Positions 14,525 to 21,425 are shown, numbered from the stretch's first letter. The stretch is DNA of 41,636 nucleotides from Candidatus Nomurabacteria bacterium (GCA_020846455.1 JADLDV010000017.1:1-41636), one strand, 5' to 3'. Notes: a model not told the origin generated them from the letters alone. Numbers and translations are program-made.

Positions 14525-14552
14525 ATACGGTAGATAAAAACTATTAGTTATA

Positions 14553-14595
14553 TCTCTAAAAGAAAAACTGGCAATGCCAGTTTTTCTTTTAGAGA
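14553..14595. terminator. Long perfect hairpin terminator
   Basis: TCTCTAAAAGAAAAACTGGC-aat-GCCAGTTTTTCTTTTAGAGA. Confidence 0.85.
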
Positions 14596-14663
14596 TTAAT
14601 TTGTCGAATATGTTTTTGTCTAAATCCTAGCGTCTAACACCTTTCTTGTACTATACTATATAC

Positions 14664-15191
14664 ATGTTTAGTAACCCAGAAGAAAATATTGCATACGCAG
14701 ATATTCGTGAAGGAATGTGTGTTGCAGATCTCGGTGCAGGTACTGGTGCGTATAGTATCCCTGCAGCAAAACGTGTGGGATATACAGGTAAAGTGTATGC
14801 TGTTGAAGTTCAAAAAGATTTACTTGCAAGAATAAAAGAAGATGCGCGTCGTGCACATCTTTCAAATATTGAAGCAGTGTGGGGAGATATTGAGCGTGTC
14901 GGCGGTACCAAACTCGCATCACACATTATTGACGTGGTTATTCTCGCCAATGTGCTTTTTATTGTCAAAGATAAAGACGCGATTATTCAAGAAGTATTTC
15001 GTATTTTGAAACCAGGAGGCACAGTACTTATTATCGATTGGAAAGATTCATATGGCGGTATGGGTCCTTCTCCACAGATGCTTATTTTAAAAATTCATGC
15101 TGAGCAACTTTTCAACAAATATGGTTTCACTTTAGTGCGTGATGTTAGTGCAGGTCCGCATCACTATGGTATACTTTTGAAGAAACCATAG
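14664..15191 (+). CDS. Class I SAM-dependent methyltransferase
   Basis: MCVADLGAGTGAYSIPAAKRVGYTGKVYAVEVQ...VVILANVLF...EVFRILKPGGTVLIIDW. Confidence 0.85.
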   Translation: MFSNPEENIAYADIREGMCVADLGAGTGAYSIPAAKRVGYTGKVYAVEVQKDLLARIKEDARRAHLSNIEAVWGDIERVGGTKLASHIIDVVILANVLFIVKDKDAIIQEVFRILKPGGTVLIIDWKDSYGGMGPSPQMLILKIHAEQLFNKYGFTLVRDVSAGPHHYGILLKKP

Positions 15192-15201
15192 ACATGTCAT
15201 T

Positions 15202-16539
15202 ATGAAAAACAGTCGCTTCCAAACTATTTTTATCGGAGTACTCACTGCTGCACTTGTCATCGCAGTTCTTATTTTTTCTGGTATATTGCCTTTCGGTAAA
15301 AAATCAGCAAATCCTGTCGGCGTGACAGGGAATTTGACCATGTGGGGAACTGTCCAAAGAGGCTATTTCAGTGGATTGTTTGAACAACTCGCAAAACAAA
15401 ATCCAGGATTAAAAGTTTCATACGTCGAAAAGTCTGCCGCAACTCTTGATTCAGAACTTATCAATGCACTCGCATCAGGTACTGGTCCTGACCTTATCCT
15501 TTTGTCTCAGGATCTACTTATGCGCTATAAAGATAAGTTATTCGTCATTCCGTATGATGCTTATCCACAAAGACAGTTCACCGATACCTTTATTCAAGAA
15601 GCAAATCTTTTTGCGACGGACGAAGGGCTACTCGGACTCCCACTTTTTGTTGATCCGATGGTGATGTACTACAACAGAGATAGTATCGAAAGTGCCGGAC
15701 AGGTAAATCCTCCTCGTACATGGAAAGAGGTTGCTGACCTCGTTCCAAAACTGACGATTCGTGATAACAAAGGTAAAGTACTTCGAAGTATTACTGCATT
15801 TGGTGATTTCGATAATATCCCTCATGCAAAAGAATTACTCTCGACTCTTTTATTGCAAACCGGTAACCCACTTGTTGTGAGAACAGGGAACGAATTTAGA
15901 TCTACACTCAACGTCGCGCCGAATGGCACACAGTCACTTCCGGCGTTCGATTTCTTTATGAGTTTTGCGATTCAGACAGACCCGCTCTATTCTTGGAATA
16001 AGACACTTCCGACACCAGAAACTATGTTCCTCTCTGGTGACATGGCACTCTATCTTGGATTTGCAAGTGAGCTTTTTACACTTCGTAATAAAAATCCTAA
16101 TCTCAATTATGACGTTGCCCGTATGCCACAGATTGCAGTTACTGGAACACAGATTACGTATGGTAAGTTGTACGGCATTGCATCACTCAAGTCTTCAAAA
16201 AATCTTCGTGCCGCATATGTAGTGAGTACTATTATTGCTGGACCAGAATTCACGAATACTCTGGCAAATGGACTCGCACTTCCTCCTGCTCGTCGTGACT
16301 TGCTTTTGCAAAAACCTTCAAATCCTTACGCAACTATTTTTTATGATTCAGCGCTCATGGCTCGTGGATGGCAAGACCCAAATCCTGAAGAAACAAAAGC
16401 AATTTTTGCAAAGATTATTGCAAACAGACTTTCTGGACGAACACAACTTTCTACAGGGATTGTCGAAGCGCAAGATAGACTCGACCAATTGTTGAAACCT
16501 TTTAAAATAATTCCAACTACAGGAAATGGATTGAAATAA
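15202..16539 (+). CDS. Extracellular solute-binding protein-like, membrane-anchored (ABC sugar-type SBP)
   Basis: N-terminal TM; GNLTMWGTVQRGYFSGLFEQLAKQNPGLKVSYVE...ALASGTGPDLILLSQD...LPLFVDPMVMYYNRD...PPRTWKEVADL. Confidence 0.85.
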   Translation: MKNSRFQTIFIGVLTAALVIAVLIFSGILPFGKKSANPVGVTGNLTMWGTVQRGYFSGLFEQLAKQNPGLKVSYVEKSAATLDSELINALASGTGPDLILLSQDLLMRYKDKLFVIPYDAYPQRQFTDTFIQEANLFATDEGLLGLPLFVDPMVMYYNRDSIESAGQVNPPRTWKEVADLVPKLTIRDNKGKVLRSITAFGDFDNIPHAKELLSTLLLQTGNPLVVRTGNEFRSTLNVAPNGTQSLPAFDFFMSFAIQTDPLYSWNKTLPTPETMFLSGDMALYLGFASELFTLRNKNPNLNYDVARMPQIAVTGTQITYGKLYGIASLKSSKNLRAAYVVSTIIAGPEFTNTLANGLALPPARRDLLLQKPSNPYATIFYDSALMARGWQDPNPEETKAIFAKIIANRLSGRTQLSTGIVEAQDRLDQLLKPFKIIPTTGNGLK

Positions 16540-16544
16540 TATAT

Positions 16545-16946
16545 ATGCAAAGATTTTTTTCTCAGATTAAAAGCCTCCCATTTTTACTGATAAGTATGGC
16601 AATGCCATTTTTTGCTCGTGCTGAAACAGCAACTGGTACAAAATTGATTCCTTGCGGTGGTCCTGGTGAAGATATGTGTACGTTTGAGCACGTACTACAA
16701 TTGATAGAGAATGTGATCAACTTTTCTCTCAACTACCTCTTCTTCCCGTTGTTTGTTATTGCGGTGGTGTACGCAGGGTATCTGTTGATGACGAGTGGTG
16801 ATAATACAGATAAAAGAAAACAAGCAAAAGATATTTTTGTAAATATTCTTATCGGATTGTTTTTTGTACTTGCTTCATGGTTGATTATCAAGTTGATCTT
16901 GGTTGGACTTGGGTATGACAGTTCTATCTTTTCTACATTTTATTAA
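16545..16946 (+). CDS. T4SS/VirB2-like pilin family protein (1 of 6)
   Basis: Signal peptide-like N-terminus, two TM helices with NTDKRKQAKDIFVNILIGLFFVLASWLIIKLIL. Confidence 0.75.
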   Translation: MQRFFSQIKSLPFLLISMAMPFFARAETATGTKLIPCGGPGEDMCTFEHVLQLIENVINFSLNYLFFPLFVIAVVYAGYLLMTSGDNTDKRKQAKDIFVNILIGLFFVLASWLIIKLILVGLGYDSSIFSTFY

Positions 16947-16982
16947 TTCACACACCGAAATACTATGATATACTTATCACAT

Positions 16983-17480
16983 ATGAAAAAGATATCCGCA
17001 ATTATGTTAGGAATAACACTATTTTTTGGCAGTGCCATGATCACTACTTCTCATGTTGTGTTTGCGTTAGAAACAGAAGGTGGTGTAGTGGGTACGGGAG
17101 GTGAAGGTGGGGTTGTTGGTACAGGAGGGACAAATACAGGCGGTAGTAACGGCGGAGCTAATAACGGAAATCAGTCACAAGGTTCTAGTGGTACATCTTT
17201 TGCAATCAAAATCAATAATCCACTCAAAAATGTCACTACACTCAATGGTCTTATTGTAAAATTACTCAACATCATTCTCACGATAGGTGTACCGTTCGTA
17301 GCATTGATGATTATTTATTCAGGATTTTTGTTTGTAAAAGCACAAGGTAACGATAAAGAACTCGGCACAGCAAAAGAAACACTGAAATGGACACTTATCG
17401 GTGGTACGATACTGCTCTCTGCATGGATTATTGCAAAAGCACTTGCGGGGACAGTCAATCAGATCGTTAATGGATCATAA
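16983..17480 (+). CDS. T4SS/VirB2-like pilin family protein (2 of 6) with Gly/Asn-rich linker
   Basis: Signal peptide, GGVVGTGGEGGVVGTGGTNTGGSNGG linker, two TMs with NDKELGTAKETLKWTLIGGTILLSAWIIAKAL. Confidence 0.75.
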   Translation: MKKISAIMLGITLFFGSAMITTSHVVFALETEGGVVGTGGEGGVVGTGGTNTGGSNGGANNGNQSQGSSGTSFAIKINNPLKNVTTLNGLIVKLLNIILTIGVPFVALMIIYSGFLFVKAQGNDKELGTAKETLKWTLIGGTILLSAWIIAKALAGTVNQIVNGS

Positions 17481-17485
17481 TATAT

Positions 17486-17884
17486 ATGAAAATATCACAT
17501 ACTAAAAAAATCTTCTTGAGCATATTCCTTCTTTGTGGGTTATTACAAACTACACTTGTTTATGCGCAGTCGCCAACAGTTGCAACAACTACTTGTTCAA
17601 ATAATTTTACCACCATTGTTGATATCATAGAATATACAAAATGTGTTATCTCTGGACTACTGATTCCGTTGCTGTTTGCTGTTGCCGTGGGAGTGTTCAT
17701 TTGGGGTGTGATTCAATACTTGAGGAATACCACTGATCCAAAAAAGCGTGAAGAAGGAAGAAGTTTTATGATTTACGGTATTATATCTCTTTTCGTCATG
17801 GTTTCTATCTGGGGGCTTGTCGGTTTTTTGGGTAATACCTTTGGTGTATCTACTACATTTGTACCAAGTTTACCTCAAGAATAA
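17486..17884 (+). CDS. T4SS/VirB2-like pilin family protein (3 of 6)
   Basis: Signal peptide; LLIPLLFAVAVGVFIWGVIQYLRNTTDPKKREEGRSFMIYGIISLFVMVSIWGLVGFLGNTFG. Confidence 0.75.
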   Translation: MKISHTKKIFLSIFLLCGLLQTTLVYAQSPTVATTTCSNNFTTIVDIIEYTKCVISGLLIPLLFAVAVGVFIWGVIQYLRNTTDPKKREEGRSFMIYGIISLFVMVSIWGLVGFLGNTFGVSTTFVPSLPQE

Positions 17885-17893
17885 ACGCACTAT

Positions 17894-18592
17894 ATGAATA
17901 TTCCCTTTACAAAGACAACAACATTTTTTCTCGGAATAGTGTTTTGCGTGTTTTTGTTGCCCGTATCTCTGGTGCATGCACAGCAGCTCGAAGGGTCATT
18001 CCAAGGAGGTTCATGGCTTGATGCATATGTACAAATACAGCAGACAGTCACGCCTGTTGGAGGTTCTGTATTTCAAGTAGGCGGACAGTTCGGCACAGGT
18101 GGTACTGGTGTTCCTGTAAATACAAATCCTATCATATCAGGCCAAACAAATTTGAATAGTACAGACCTTGTTAATCAAAATGATTTCTCCGCTGGTACTA
18201 CTAACGGCACTGCGAATCCAAACCAATTCAATGGTCAAACATCAAATACAATATCAAGTTCAGTCCCAGATAATTCAGGGACATGTCCTACCACTTTCGT
18301 TACCGTATTGGATATACTTTTATTTTTCAAATGTATTATAACTGTATCGATTATTCCGCTGCTCTTTGCGATCGCTATCAGTGTCTTTGTGTGGGGGATT
18401 GTGCAATATATCAAGAATGCTGCTGATTCTAAAAAACGTGAAGAAGGACGTAATTTTATGGTTTACGGAGTGGTTTCTATCTTTGTTATCGTCTCTATGT
18501 GGGGACTTGTTGGGTTCTTGCGTAACACCTTTTTTGGTGGAACAGGGGCGGTGTTTCTACCTCGAACCCCTCAACAGCAATCTCCACAATAA
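17894..18592 (+). CDS. T4SS/VirB2-like pilin family protein (4 of 6) with long Asn/Thr/Gly-rich N-terminal extension
   Basis: Core IIPLLFAIAISVFVWGIVQYIKNAADSKKREEGRNFMVYGVVSIFVIVSMWGLVGFLRNTFF closely parallels the 17486 product. Confidence 0.75.
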   Translation: MNIPFTKTTTFFLGIVFCVFLLPVSLVHAQQLEGSFQGGSWLDAYVQIQQTVTPVGGSVFQVGGQFGTGGTGVPVNTNPIISGQTNLNSTDLVNQNDFSAGTTNGTANPNQFNGQTSNTISSSVPDNSGTCPTTFVTVLDILLFFKCIITVSIIPLLFAIAISVFVWGIVQYIKNAADSKKREEGRNFMVYGVVSIFVIVSMWGLVGFLRNTFFGGTGAVFLPRTPQQQSPQ

Positions 18593-18597
18593 TCCAC

Positions 18598-18624
18598 TAG
18601 ACAGCTAGGTTTTTGTGGTATACT
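18598..18624 (+). promoter_or_regulatory. Internal promoter upstream of pilin 5
   Basis: TAGACA-15-TATACT in a 90-nt intergenic gap. Confidence 0.5.
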
Positions 18625-18682
18625 AAGTAGGTTAGTTAATATTATCAGTCACTATAATTTATAGTAATAATTTTTTAATAAT

Positions 18683-19066
18683 ATGAAAAAGTTTCTTTCA
18701 TTGTCAGCGCTTTCAATGCTTCCGTTTGTTGCACTTGCCCAAGTAAACCCAGGCGGTCTTGGTGTTACAAACCCAAACACTTCAAACGTTACAACACTTT
18801 TTAACTTCGTAAACGACATCGCAAACTGGTTTATTCCATTTGCGACAACACTTGCGGTTATCTACTTCATCTGGGAAGTCGGAAAATATGTCTTTGCCAA
18901 AGAAGATAAAACAAAACTTGAAGCTCGAAATGGTATGATTAGTGGTGCAATCGCACTATTCGTTGTTGTATCTATTTGGGGTATTATCCGATTCATCGGT
19001 ACAACTGTTGGTGTGCAACAAGGTGGTACAAACTGTATCATCAACCCTAACGCTCCTGGTTGTTAA
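18683..19066 (+). CDS. T4SS/VirB2-like pilin family protein (5 of 6), candidate major subunit
   Basis: Signal peptide MKKFLSLSALSMLPFVALAQ; WFIPFATTLAVIYFIWEVGKYVFAKEDKTKLEARNGMISGAIALFVVVSIWGIIRFIG; C-terminal NCIINPNAPGC. Confidence 0.78.
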   Translation: MKKFLSLSALSMLPFVALAQVNPGGLGVTNPNTSNVTTLFNFVNDIANWFIPFATTLAVIYFIWEVGKYVFAKEDKTKLEARNGMISGAIALFVVVSIWGIIRFIGTTVGVQQGGTNCIINPNAPGC

Positions 19067-19074
19067 TATCTTCT

Positions 19075-19440
19075 ATGTTTTTCTTTCCTCTTATTGCGTT
19101 CGCAGAAGACTTCACCGTGCTTGATCTCATGAAGCGTCTGAATAAGTTCTTGATCAATCCTATTTTGACATTGGTCTTTATTCTCGCGATGCTCTATTTC
19201 CTCTACGGTGTATTCAAATACATCAAAGGAGGAGGTAATCCAAAAGATCGTGAGACAGGAGGGACTCACATCATGTACGGATTGATTGGGATGACTATTA
19301 TGTTTGGAGTATATGTCATTATGAATATTCTCCTTCGGACTGTGGGTATCGATGAGACACAGATTAATCCAGAGACAGGTGTGGTCAATGTCCCAGATCT
19401 CTCTCAAGAGTTCAATGTGCAGATTGATTCAAACCAATAA
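19075..19440 (+). CDS. T4SS/VirB2-like pilin family protein (6 of 6)
   Basis: MFFFPLIAFAEDFTVLDLMKRLNKFLINPILTLVFILAMLYFLYGVFKYIKGGGNPKDRETGGTHIMYGLIGMTIMFGVYVIMNILLRTVGI. Confidence 0.72.
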   Translation: MFFFPLIAFAEDFTVLDLMKRLNKFLINPILTLVFILAMLYFLYGVFKYIKGGGNPKDRETGGTHIMYGLIGMTIMFGVYVIMNILLRTVGIDETQINPETGVVNVPDLSQEFNVQIDSNQ

Positions 19441-19455
19441 AAGAAAGAAATAAAA

Positions 19456-19486
19456 AAAGCGTTGCATCTATGATGCAACGCTTTTG
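19456..19486. terminator. Terminator between pilin cluster and convergent membrane-protein gene
   Basis: AAAAGCGTTGCAT..ATGCAACGCTTTT hairpin. Confidence 0.8.
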
Positions 19487-19502: not shown

Positions 19503-20225
19503 TTACAAATCAATCCGCGACCATATTTCTACAGTCGCAATGTAAGGCTTATCAGCGGGTTCAGTTCTGATTGTGATTTTTTTAACTTGTTGAGGGTTAA
19601 TATAATCACTTGGAACTTTTCCGTTTTGAAACCAGACATTTTCGTCATTGATTTTTACTTGGTATGGTTTGTTTGATTTCCAATACCACTTAACACGTTC
19701 ATGAGCATATGCAGGAATTTCATACACAATCTCATCGCCTTGTTGTATTTTCCATACTTTTCCTTCAAAGAAGGTTGGTATAATAAAAAGTACAATGGTG
19801 ATACCATACATGACGTTTTTGACCCACGCATGATCATCACTTAATTGGGAACCTGTAACAATACAACCTAGAATTGCTATATGGAAAATCCAAAAGCGAC
19901 TACTTTCATCAAATGCCCAATAATATGGAGCAAGTAATGGAGTATTTTTTGTGGTTAATAACAACAAAGCGTACACACAGAGTGGAATAACAGCAAGTTG
20001 TATTTGAGGAAGAGCCTCTTCTATCGGCTTTAACTTGAGGTCGTACACATCTTCATCGAGATATTTTTTGTAGCCGTCCAATATTTGTTGAATTATACCA
20101 AACTTCAACATCAGCCAAAGCGTTCCATAGAGCACTAATGCTATTAATGGATATGTTGCTGGTAAGTAGATTGCGGCAATGATAATACCTAGTATCCTCA
20201 TTGCCAAGAAAAATAAACTTTTCAT
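19503..20225 (-). CDS. Hypothetical multi-pass membrane protein
   Basis: 240 aa with several hydrophobic segments; adjacent to the SPFH-like gene. Confidence 0.65.
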   Translation of the reverse strand: MKSLFFLAMRILGIIIAAIYLPATYPLIALVLYGTLWLMLKFGIIQQILDGYKKYLDEDVYDLKLKPIEEALPQIQLAVIPLCVYALLLLTTKNTPLLAPYYWAFDESSRFWIFHIAILGCIVTGSQLSDDHAWVKNVMYGITIVLFIIPTFFEGKVWKIQQGDEIVYEIPAYAHERVKWYWKSNKPYQVKINDENVWFQNGKVPSDYINPQQVKKITIRTEPADKPYIATVEIWSRIDL

Positions 20226-20228
20226 TTA

Positions 20229-21425
20229 TTATTTAGTTTTAGTTTTAGGTTTAGTTTGAACATTTTTAGGATTTTTGTTCGAGGTATTTTTTGCAGACTC
20301 TGCGGCAACGATTGCGTTACCTACACCTCCTGTATTGTTCCCGAGAACGACAACAGATGCATTTGTGTTTTCGATTGCTTTTGCCATTAGCTCGGCATTT
20401 TTGTTTTCGAAATATACAGCAGTCATCTTGTTTTTATTGAGATTTTGGTAAAAACCTTTATGTTTGTTTTCTTTACCAAACAATGCGGCATTTTCTGCTT
20501 GTATTTTTACAACAGCTGCCTCCGCTTCTTCTTTGGAAGTTCTTGATAATGTAAACGTATTTTCAAGTTTTTCTTTGTTTGGTCCAGTAAATTCAAAATC
20601 GATATATGTAATATCTAGAATTTCTACACCAAGGTTTTTTATTTCCTCATGCTCGTTGATTATACCCTCACATTGCACAGAAAGACCTTCAGGGTCAGAT
20701 TCATGCTTAGTTTCATTTAGCCAATCGATAGTTTTACTACCCATAATATCACGAATTGTTGATTCTATTTTTTCATCAACAACTTCTAGTGCATTATCTG
20801 CGTTAAAACGAAATAAGTAGCCGTTATTGATTTGAAGTGTATACAGTATTTTGACTGCAATAGGAAGCATTTCGTTGTCTTCTTTTTTGCCACCTGTGCG
20901 TACTTTTGGTACGGTGTAATATTGGTATTTATATCTATAATGGTTTGTTAGCTGATTTGTGCGAGGCTTAACCTCGTTGTTGATATATTCAGTCCAACTC
21001 ATTTTCCATTCTAAAATTGTATATATACCAGGCGCTCCGCCTAAATAGATTACCCCAAGCCTTTTGGCTCGCTCTCTGTGAATTCCTTCAAGAAAATCAA
21101 ATTTTGAGTCATTGTCTTCCTTATTTTTATAAGGAAGAATATCCCAAACTGTTTTATTTTTATCGTACAAGGTTTTATTTTCAGGATCATTAACAAAGTG
21201 TCCAGGAATTTCAGCAATAAGTTTTTCAAATTGACCACCCTTAAGAATGATATACATTCTATTTGGTGTTGGTTTAAAATACCATGCTGGTTTCTCGATC
21301 TTTGCTTCAGGATCTTTTTTTGTTGCCATTTTCATGATAACTGGATCTAGTAAATCACCAATCCAATTAACCTTAACTGAAAAGATTTTGTTAAGGAATT
21401 TTCCAATTTTCTGTATTGTGTTCAT
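20229..21425 (-). CDS. SPFH/Band-7 domain-like protein
   Basis: NLGVEILDITYIDFEFTGPNKEKLENTFTLSRTSKEEAEAAVVKIQAENAALFGKENKHKGF resembles the SPFH tail; IVLKGGQFEKLIAEIPGHFVND-like N-terminus. Confidence 0.55.
   Translation of the reverse strand: MNTIQKIGKFLNKIFSVKVNWIGDLLDPVIMKMATKKDPEAKIEKPAWYFKPTPNRMYIILKGGQFEKLIAEIPGHFVNDPENKTLYDKNKTVWDILPYKNKEDNDSKFDFLEGIHRERAKRLGVIYLGGAPGIYTILEWKMSWTEYINNEVKPRTNQLTNHYRYKYQYYTVPKVRTGGKKEDNEMLPIAVKILYTLQINNGYLFRFNADNALEVVDEKIESTIRDIMGSKTIDWLNETKHESDPEGLSVQCEGIINEHEEIKNLGVEILDITYIDFEFTGPNKEKLENTFTLSRTSKEEAEAAVVKIQAENAALFGKENKHKGFYQNLNKNKMTAVYFENKNAELMAKAIENTNASVVVLGNNTGGVGNAIVAAESAKNTSNKNPKNVQTKPKTKTK

Follow-up and report, generated by a model that had tools for sequence, protein, structure and literature searches.

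A solute-binding protein encoded ahead of a pilin array in Candidatus Nomurabacteria: a probable extracellular module of the type IV secretion system in Patescibacteria

We analysed a stretch of 41,636 nucleotides, here called the window, from a Candidatus Nomurabacteria bacterium (GCA_020846455.1 JADLDV010000017.1:1-41636; the assembly totals 605 kb over 36 contigs and is 97.7% complete). In it, the gene for a membrane-anchored solute-binding protein (SBP) is followed by six genes for pilins of the type IV secretion system (T4SS) kind, an arrangement that recurs across much of the phylum. Our results suggest that this SBP is probably the part of a T4SS that recognises something outside the cell.

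The locus and its proteins

The features of the locus are given below; the pilins are labelled p1-p6 by their order in the array and, as subunits, P1, P2, P3, P3-type copy, P4 and P5.

14552-14596: hairpin terminator of 20 pairs, between gyrA and the unit
14646-15191, + strand: small methyltransferase of class I that opens the unit, 181 aa, TTG start, with the SBP gene 10 bp downstream (Methyltransf_31, 1.6e-20)
15202-16539, + strand: SBP, 445 aa, N-terminal transmembrane (TM) segment, MalE-like two-lobe fold (SBP_bac_1, 6.1e-19)
16545-16946, + strand: pilin P1, 133 aa, starting 5 bp past the SBP stop (T4SS_pilin, 1.7e-9)
16965-17480, + strand: pilin P2, 171 aa, Gly/Asn-rich linker (T4SS_pilin, 6.2e-10)
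17486-17884, + strand: pilin P3, 132 aa (T4SS_pilin, 6.6e-12)
17894-18592, + strand: extra P3-type pilin, 232 aa, long Asn/Thr/Gly-rich linker (T4SS_pilin, 5.2e-8)
18683-19066, + strand: pilin P4, 127 aa (T4SS_pilin, 5.7e-8)
19060-19440, + strand: pilin P5, 126 aa, TTG start, 7-bp overlap with P4 (T4SS_pilin, 25.5 bits)
19455-19485: nearly symmetric hairpin terminator, scored on the - strand, closing the unit; a convergent gene lies beyond it at 19503-20225

Apart from that overlap, the genes of the unit are separated by gaps of 5-90 bp, and all lie on the + strand, with the coordinates and orientation that a preliminary description of the window, made from its sequence, had given for the SBP and pilin genes. 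Since both bounding terminators are strong, the methyltransferase, the SBP and the six pilins are probably transcribed alone, as a single predicted unit.

The SBP matches SBP_bac_1 (69.6 bits, cut-off 26) and SBP_bac_8 (5e-18) and carries one TM segment at residues 11-29, in agreement with its earlier description as membrane-anchored; it has no Cys and hence no lipobox. Its AlphaFold2 model is confident (pLDDT 90.3) and two-lobed, and a Foldseek search of the PDB with this model returned mostly oligosaccharide SBPs, the best being 5f7v (1.7e-22). In an alignment read by eye, its acidic residues D104 and D151 align with D65 and E111 of MBP. The closest relatives in named genomes come from Ca. 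Nomurabacteria, Taylorbacteria, Zambryskibacteria, Campbellbacteria, Wolfebacteria and Yonathbacteria, that is, from Paceibacteria. A lipobox motif occurs in 1 of 53 SBPs of the order and is common in SBP relatives of other lineages; as read from these motifs, the type of anchor (TM or lipobox) varies among lineages while membrane attachment stays.

A search with hidden Markov models (HMMs) placed all six proposed pilins in or at the edge of T4SS_pilin (PF18895): p1-p5 score 33.2-45.8 bits, over the curated cut-off of 26.6, and p6 (P5) scores 25.5, just under it, with 23 of 24 members of the P5 orthologue alignment matching the family at E<=0.001. PF18895 is found in 280 of 287 phylum genomes and, at E<=0.001, in 1 of 14 control genomes. 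The architecture seen earlier in the six proteins is indeed common to them all, each having at its N-terminus a signal-peptide-like segment that bears an AxA-type site, two TM helices by hydropathy and, between these, a short charged loop of net charge 0 to +2. Long Gly/Asn/Thr-rich linkers are present in two of them (p2 and p4) and Cys pairs in several (p1 and p3-p5, but not p2 or p6), likewise as first described. Only p1 matches TrbC/VirB2 (PF04956), at 21.4 bits and thus under the cut-off of 27.9. The AlphaFold2 model of P5 is a two-helix hairpin (helices 20-56 and 61-94), and a sequence search of the PDB with the pilins gave no match, none to a solved pilus. Among pilin-domain proteins of other genomes, one of 1239 aa (L245:4982-8701) matches TrbC/VirB2 over the cut-off (35.5 bits) and also carries CARDB, which may make it a link between PF18895 and the classic VirB2. 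Giant forms exist too, with PF18895 lying in frames of 3354 aa (G311:C10:51745-51957), 3090 aa (G212:C12:276525-276737) and 1649 aa (G042:C7).

Conservation of the pair and identity of the subunits

One copy of the SBP gene is present in 54 of 60 relatives, and in 44 of the 45 genomes of high quality. A same-strand pilin lies directly 3' of it at 51 of 54 order-level loci, where pilins were found by an HMM seeded on those of the window and independent PF18895 matches fall at the same places. The three exceptions look like contig breaks, one locus (L077) being cut by a contig end and two (L070 and L080) lying on contigs of ~5 kb. Arrays in the order usually comprise five pilins in a row, and 4-7 in most intact loci. 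The SBP is also followed by a pilin at 78/78 named Paceibacteria loci, a count that takes in only loci with enough 3' sequence, and at 52/65 phylum-wide loci. The adjacency reported from one genome therefore recurs across the phylum, far beyond chance. Upstream of the SBP, gyrA (46/54 loci) and a relative of the methyltransferase (51/54) are conserved in the order as well, so we checked the pairing at loci devoid of both: SBP and pilins are retained at 34 phylum loci with neither gene in the 1.5-3 kb upstream. A mere conserved gyrA-methyltransferase block is thereby ruled out as the cause of the pairing, which survives without either gene.

Other neighbours were also recorded. In many lineages outside the order (L242-L281; e.g. 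L250:1559-2874, L252, L263), galU and often hsp20 stand immediately 5' of the SBP-pilin unit, and hsp20 also adjoins pilin arrays that have no SBP. Such SBP-less arrays are found in L302-L321 (families f53 and f101), where pilins are abundant; several of those in f53 adjoin PrgI/VirB4 and a secreted protein of ~900-1040 aa. Divergent SBP relatives with neither adjoining pilins nor an obvious permease are present in L256, L260, L270, L276 and L278, with groEL-like genes a few genes away in the last four. Within the window itself, a - strand gene at 20229-21425 has a weak Band_7/SPFH (HflK-like) match and adjoins a gene for a 240-aa membrane protein; it has homologues in 9 order-level loci.

The pilins of the array are individually recognisable. 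Each subunit in the window scores higher with the profile built for its own position than with the next best profile: P1 (125.8 vs 46.4 bits), P2 (114.5 vs 49.3), P3 (135.7 vs 99.7), P4 (106.2 vs 76.4) and P5 (101.2 vs 73.1). The extra pilin at 17894-18592 is best matched by the P3 profile (118.3 bits) and has few reciprocal best hits elsewhere. Among five-gene arrays from 48 genomes, 3882 of 4138 reciprocal best hits (93.8%) join equal positions, and the median score is 69 bits for same-position pairs as against 37 for paralogues within a genome. The positional agreement and the score gap together indicate that distinct subunits of ancient origin make up the array: by sequence, the pilins of the order are five fixed orthologous subunits, to which the window adds one duplicate of P3. 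With such a defined set, structure prediction and microscopy can put the architecture to the test. The one-to-one scheme holds within the order; beyond it profile assignment is suggestive only, with the first pilin best matched by P1 in 17/22 arrays and no clear assignment at the other positions. Some first-position pilins of relatives are long (453-744 aa), and several contain FN3-like domains, whose presence suggests surface exposure.

Secretion motor and permeases

No VirB4-type motor had been seen at first, which is correct for the window and incorrect for the genome, since contig C7 carries a single VirB4 (PF19044; C7:3196-4107, 2.6e-25) together with PrgI (3e-12), near dnaA. The gene order on C7 is PrgI/VirB3, the VirB4 N-terminal part, VirB4, a coiled-coil protein, a PKD-like protein (weak match), a T4SS_pilin-NlpC/P60 protein, a 464-aa protein, dnaA and dnaN. 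The VirB4 N-terminal part is named by its position and its relatives and is comparable to TrsD of PMC12102498. The fusion beside VirB4 (469 aa; L125:6056-7465, which is the same contig) combines an NlpC/P60 hydrolase domain with a two-TM segment resembling T4SS_pilin and is likely to be a wall-cutting, VirB1-like subunit. A VirD4-like match is located on contig C24 of the same genome. VirB4 was detected in 54/60 relatives and 270/287 phylum genomes. A stand-alone system with no motor, as the preliminary description had implied, is therefore rejected: the T4SS core lies at dnaA, and the two modules are joined in L248, a member of the same class, where methyltransferase, SBP, two pilins, PrgI, VirB4N and VirB4C follow one another uninterrupted on one strand. 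In L289 and L290 an hsp20-galU-SBP-pilin block lies ~10-13 kb from PrgI-VirB4N-VirB4C. SBP and VirB4 are <=35 kb apart in 4/7 single-contig or near-complete genomes; this is no more than suggestive, since the two may simply both be close to oriC and the lengths of some genomes are rounded.

The absence of an ABC permease, first remarked on for the window, extends to the whole genome, a search of which gave no BPD_transp_1 (PF00528) match, ABC ATPases not having been searched for. Such permeases were found in 7/60 relatives and 39/287 phylum genomes, and in 14/14 controls, whereas the SBP is present in 54/60 and 215/287. By comparison of the two genome lists, ~178 of the 215 SBP-bearing phylum genomes have no PF00528 permease. 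Judging from this absence of PF00528 permeases, the SBP is very probably not a subunit of a classical ABC importer, which supports that part of the initial interpretation. A genome survey counted a substrate-binding protein, K02027, among the transporters that Patescibacteria retain (PMC7137472); judging from its family, we infer that it is the same protein as the SBP described here.

Interpretation and relation to known systems

An SBP that has no importer to serve, encoded before T4SS pilus genes across much of the phylum, is probably the outside-recognition part of the machine. We therefore favour, with a probability of roughly 0.6, the reading that the locus encodes the extracellular module of the T4SS in Patescibacteria: a pilus or conduit of mixed subunits, equipped with the SBP as its receptor. 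This reading draws directly on family membership, the operon-like structure, linkage, paralogue identity, the absence of the permease and the presence of the motor. Signal peptides would deliver the five VirB2-like pilins (P1-P5, with the P3 duplicate) to the cytoplasmic membrane, from which the VirB4/PrgI (VirB3) machine of the dnaA locus would extract and assemble them. Extraction and assembly of pilins by the T4SS machine are known for VirB2 systems. P1-P5 probably co-polymerise into a mixed pilus or a trans-envelope conduit, and the membrane-tethered SBP would contact them, serving the T4SS rather than an ABC importer. Judging from its fold, the SBP would most likely recognise a glycan, from the host or the envelope, or a comparable small ligand, and such binding might in turn lead to host recognition, adhesion or gating of the machine. 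Transport might run inwards or outwards.

Several observations weigh against this interpretation. SBP relatives stand without adjoining pilins at 13 of the 65 phylum loci, mostly where the SBP is most divergent, and pilin arrays without an SBP are found in several lineages, so the SBP would accompany the T4SS in some lineages only, as a partner rather than a universal component. In the window's own genome the motor and the pilin array lie on different contigs, unlinked. The model of the P5 pilin found no informative structural match in the PDB and, in the alignment read by eye, the tryptophans that provide the aromatic sugar stacking of MBP are not evidently kept in the SBP.

It may also be, though we think it unlikely, that no extracellular pilus is made and the pilin-like proteins serve as small components of a T4SS channel in the membrane, with the SBP as its surface-side partner. 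Pili are usually absent from the T4SSs of monoderms (PMC12102498), and the predicted structure is only a two-helix hairpin, with no solved pilus matched by sequence; however, PF18895 is a family of pilins, and both the signal peptides and the forms with FN3-like domains point to exposure at the surface. Rather more doubtful is the idea that the SBP helps to feed the cell, serving as the receptor or gate of an inward, VirB4-powered conduit lined by the five pilins, which would take in a captured host-derived oligosaccharide or other solute, or material released with it. To our knowledge, small-solute import has been established for no T4SS, and pilin arrays operate without an SBP in some lineages. 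In its favour are the permease-less SBP next to conduit-type pilins, the galU gene immediately 5' of the SBP in many other lineages, the small number of transporters in Patescibacteria (PMC7137472) and the speculation of a review on uptake from the host via their T4SS (PMC12857230). If true, it would mean an importer made of conjugation parts and an ABC-type receptor, in a cell with almost no transporters.

We consider it very improbable that the SBP belongs, as a remnant or as a working substrate-binding part, to an ABC importer for sugars with its permease elsewhere, its adjacency to the pilins reflecting shared chromosomal history. The protein does have the sequence and fold typical of oligosaccharide SBPs, its family, K02027, is listed as a retained transporter (PMC7137472), and the wider gyrA-methyltransferase block is likewise conserved within the order; yet the PF00528 permease is missing from this genome, from 53/60 relatives and from 248/287 phylum genomes with all controls positive, and the SBP-pilin pair persists where that block is absent. 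Hardly credible, and rejected at order level for antigenic variation, is a variable, host-tuned set of adhesins or antigens like the Bartonella VirB2 repeats, as suggested for Patescibacterial VirB2 arrays (PMC12102498) and in keeping with the varied length and FN3-like domains of first-position genes, because the paralogues hold their one-to-one identity and order across 48 genomes, with recent duplication as the exception.

An open question about Patescibacteria is how they recognise their hosts and, having few transporters, obtain nutrients. The T4SS proved essential in the only species tested (PMC10633639), the Saccharibacterium Southlakia epibionticum, which needs a T4SS pilin array for epibiotic growth (PMC10633639, PMC12857230). 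In host-attached Paceibacteria, T4SS pilins rank near the top in expression among secreted genes (PMC10936435). Pilin arrays and T4SSs of these bacteria were already known. The partnership with an SBP appears to be new within the literature searched, where no paper linked an SBP to Patescibacterial T4SS pilins; this claim is limited to that literature, which lay outside most subscription papers and preprints. With it, about three quarters of the sampled phylum genomes gain a candidate for the extracellular recognition subunit of the T4SS, and a protein long taken for the leftover of a sugar importer can be reread as a probable T4SS partner in tiny, host-dependent bacteria.

The closest known systems are the Patescibacterial T4SSs with VirB2-like arrays (Quinonero-Coronel 2025, PMC12102498; Wang 2023, PMC10633639), with which ours shares divergent PF18895 pilin arrays, PrgI/VirB3, a TrsD-like VirB4 N-terminal part, VirB4 and the dnaA neighbourhood. 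The array in the window differs in being led by an SBP, of which there is no mention in the texts searched, in being unlinked from virB4, and in having paralogues that are fixed orthologous subunits and not a free repertoire. All six pilins also match the two-TM, pilin-like conjugal transfer proteins of the Mbov_0395 family (NF045849), although every match is below the cut-off (22-31 bits vs 40) and the window pilins stand in an array with an SBP. The SBP shares with MalE-like SBPs of carbohydrate ABC importers (PF01547/PF13416) the two-lobe fold and a conserved DPLVMYYNRD-type segment, and its top structural matches are oligosaccharide binders (5f7v, 7c68, 4r9g); it differs from them in that its genome has no PF00528 permease, a pilin array adjoins it and, in this order, a TM anchor replaces the lipobox. 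A possible analogy, and not a homology, is offered by VirB5 and other pilus-tip proteins of Gram-negative T4SSs, as extracellular recognition partners of a VirB2 pilus. Unlike these, the SBP combines a MalE-like fold with a membrane anchor, and the conservation of that predicted anchor (or of a lipobox elsewhere) argues for a place at the cell surface rather than at the tip of a fibre.

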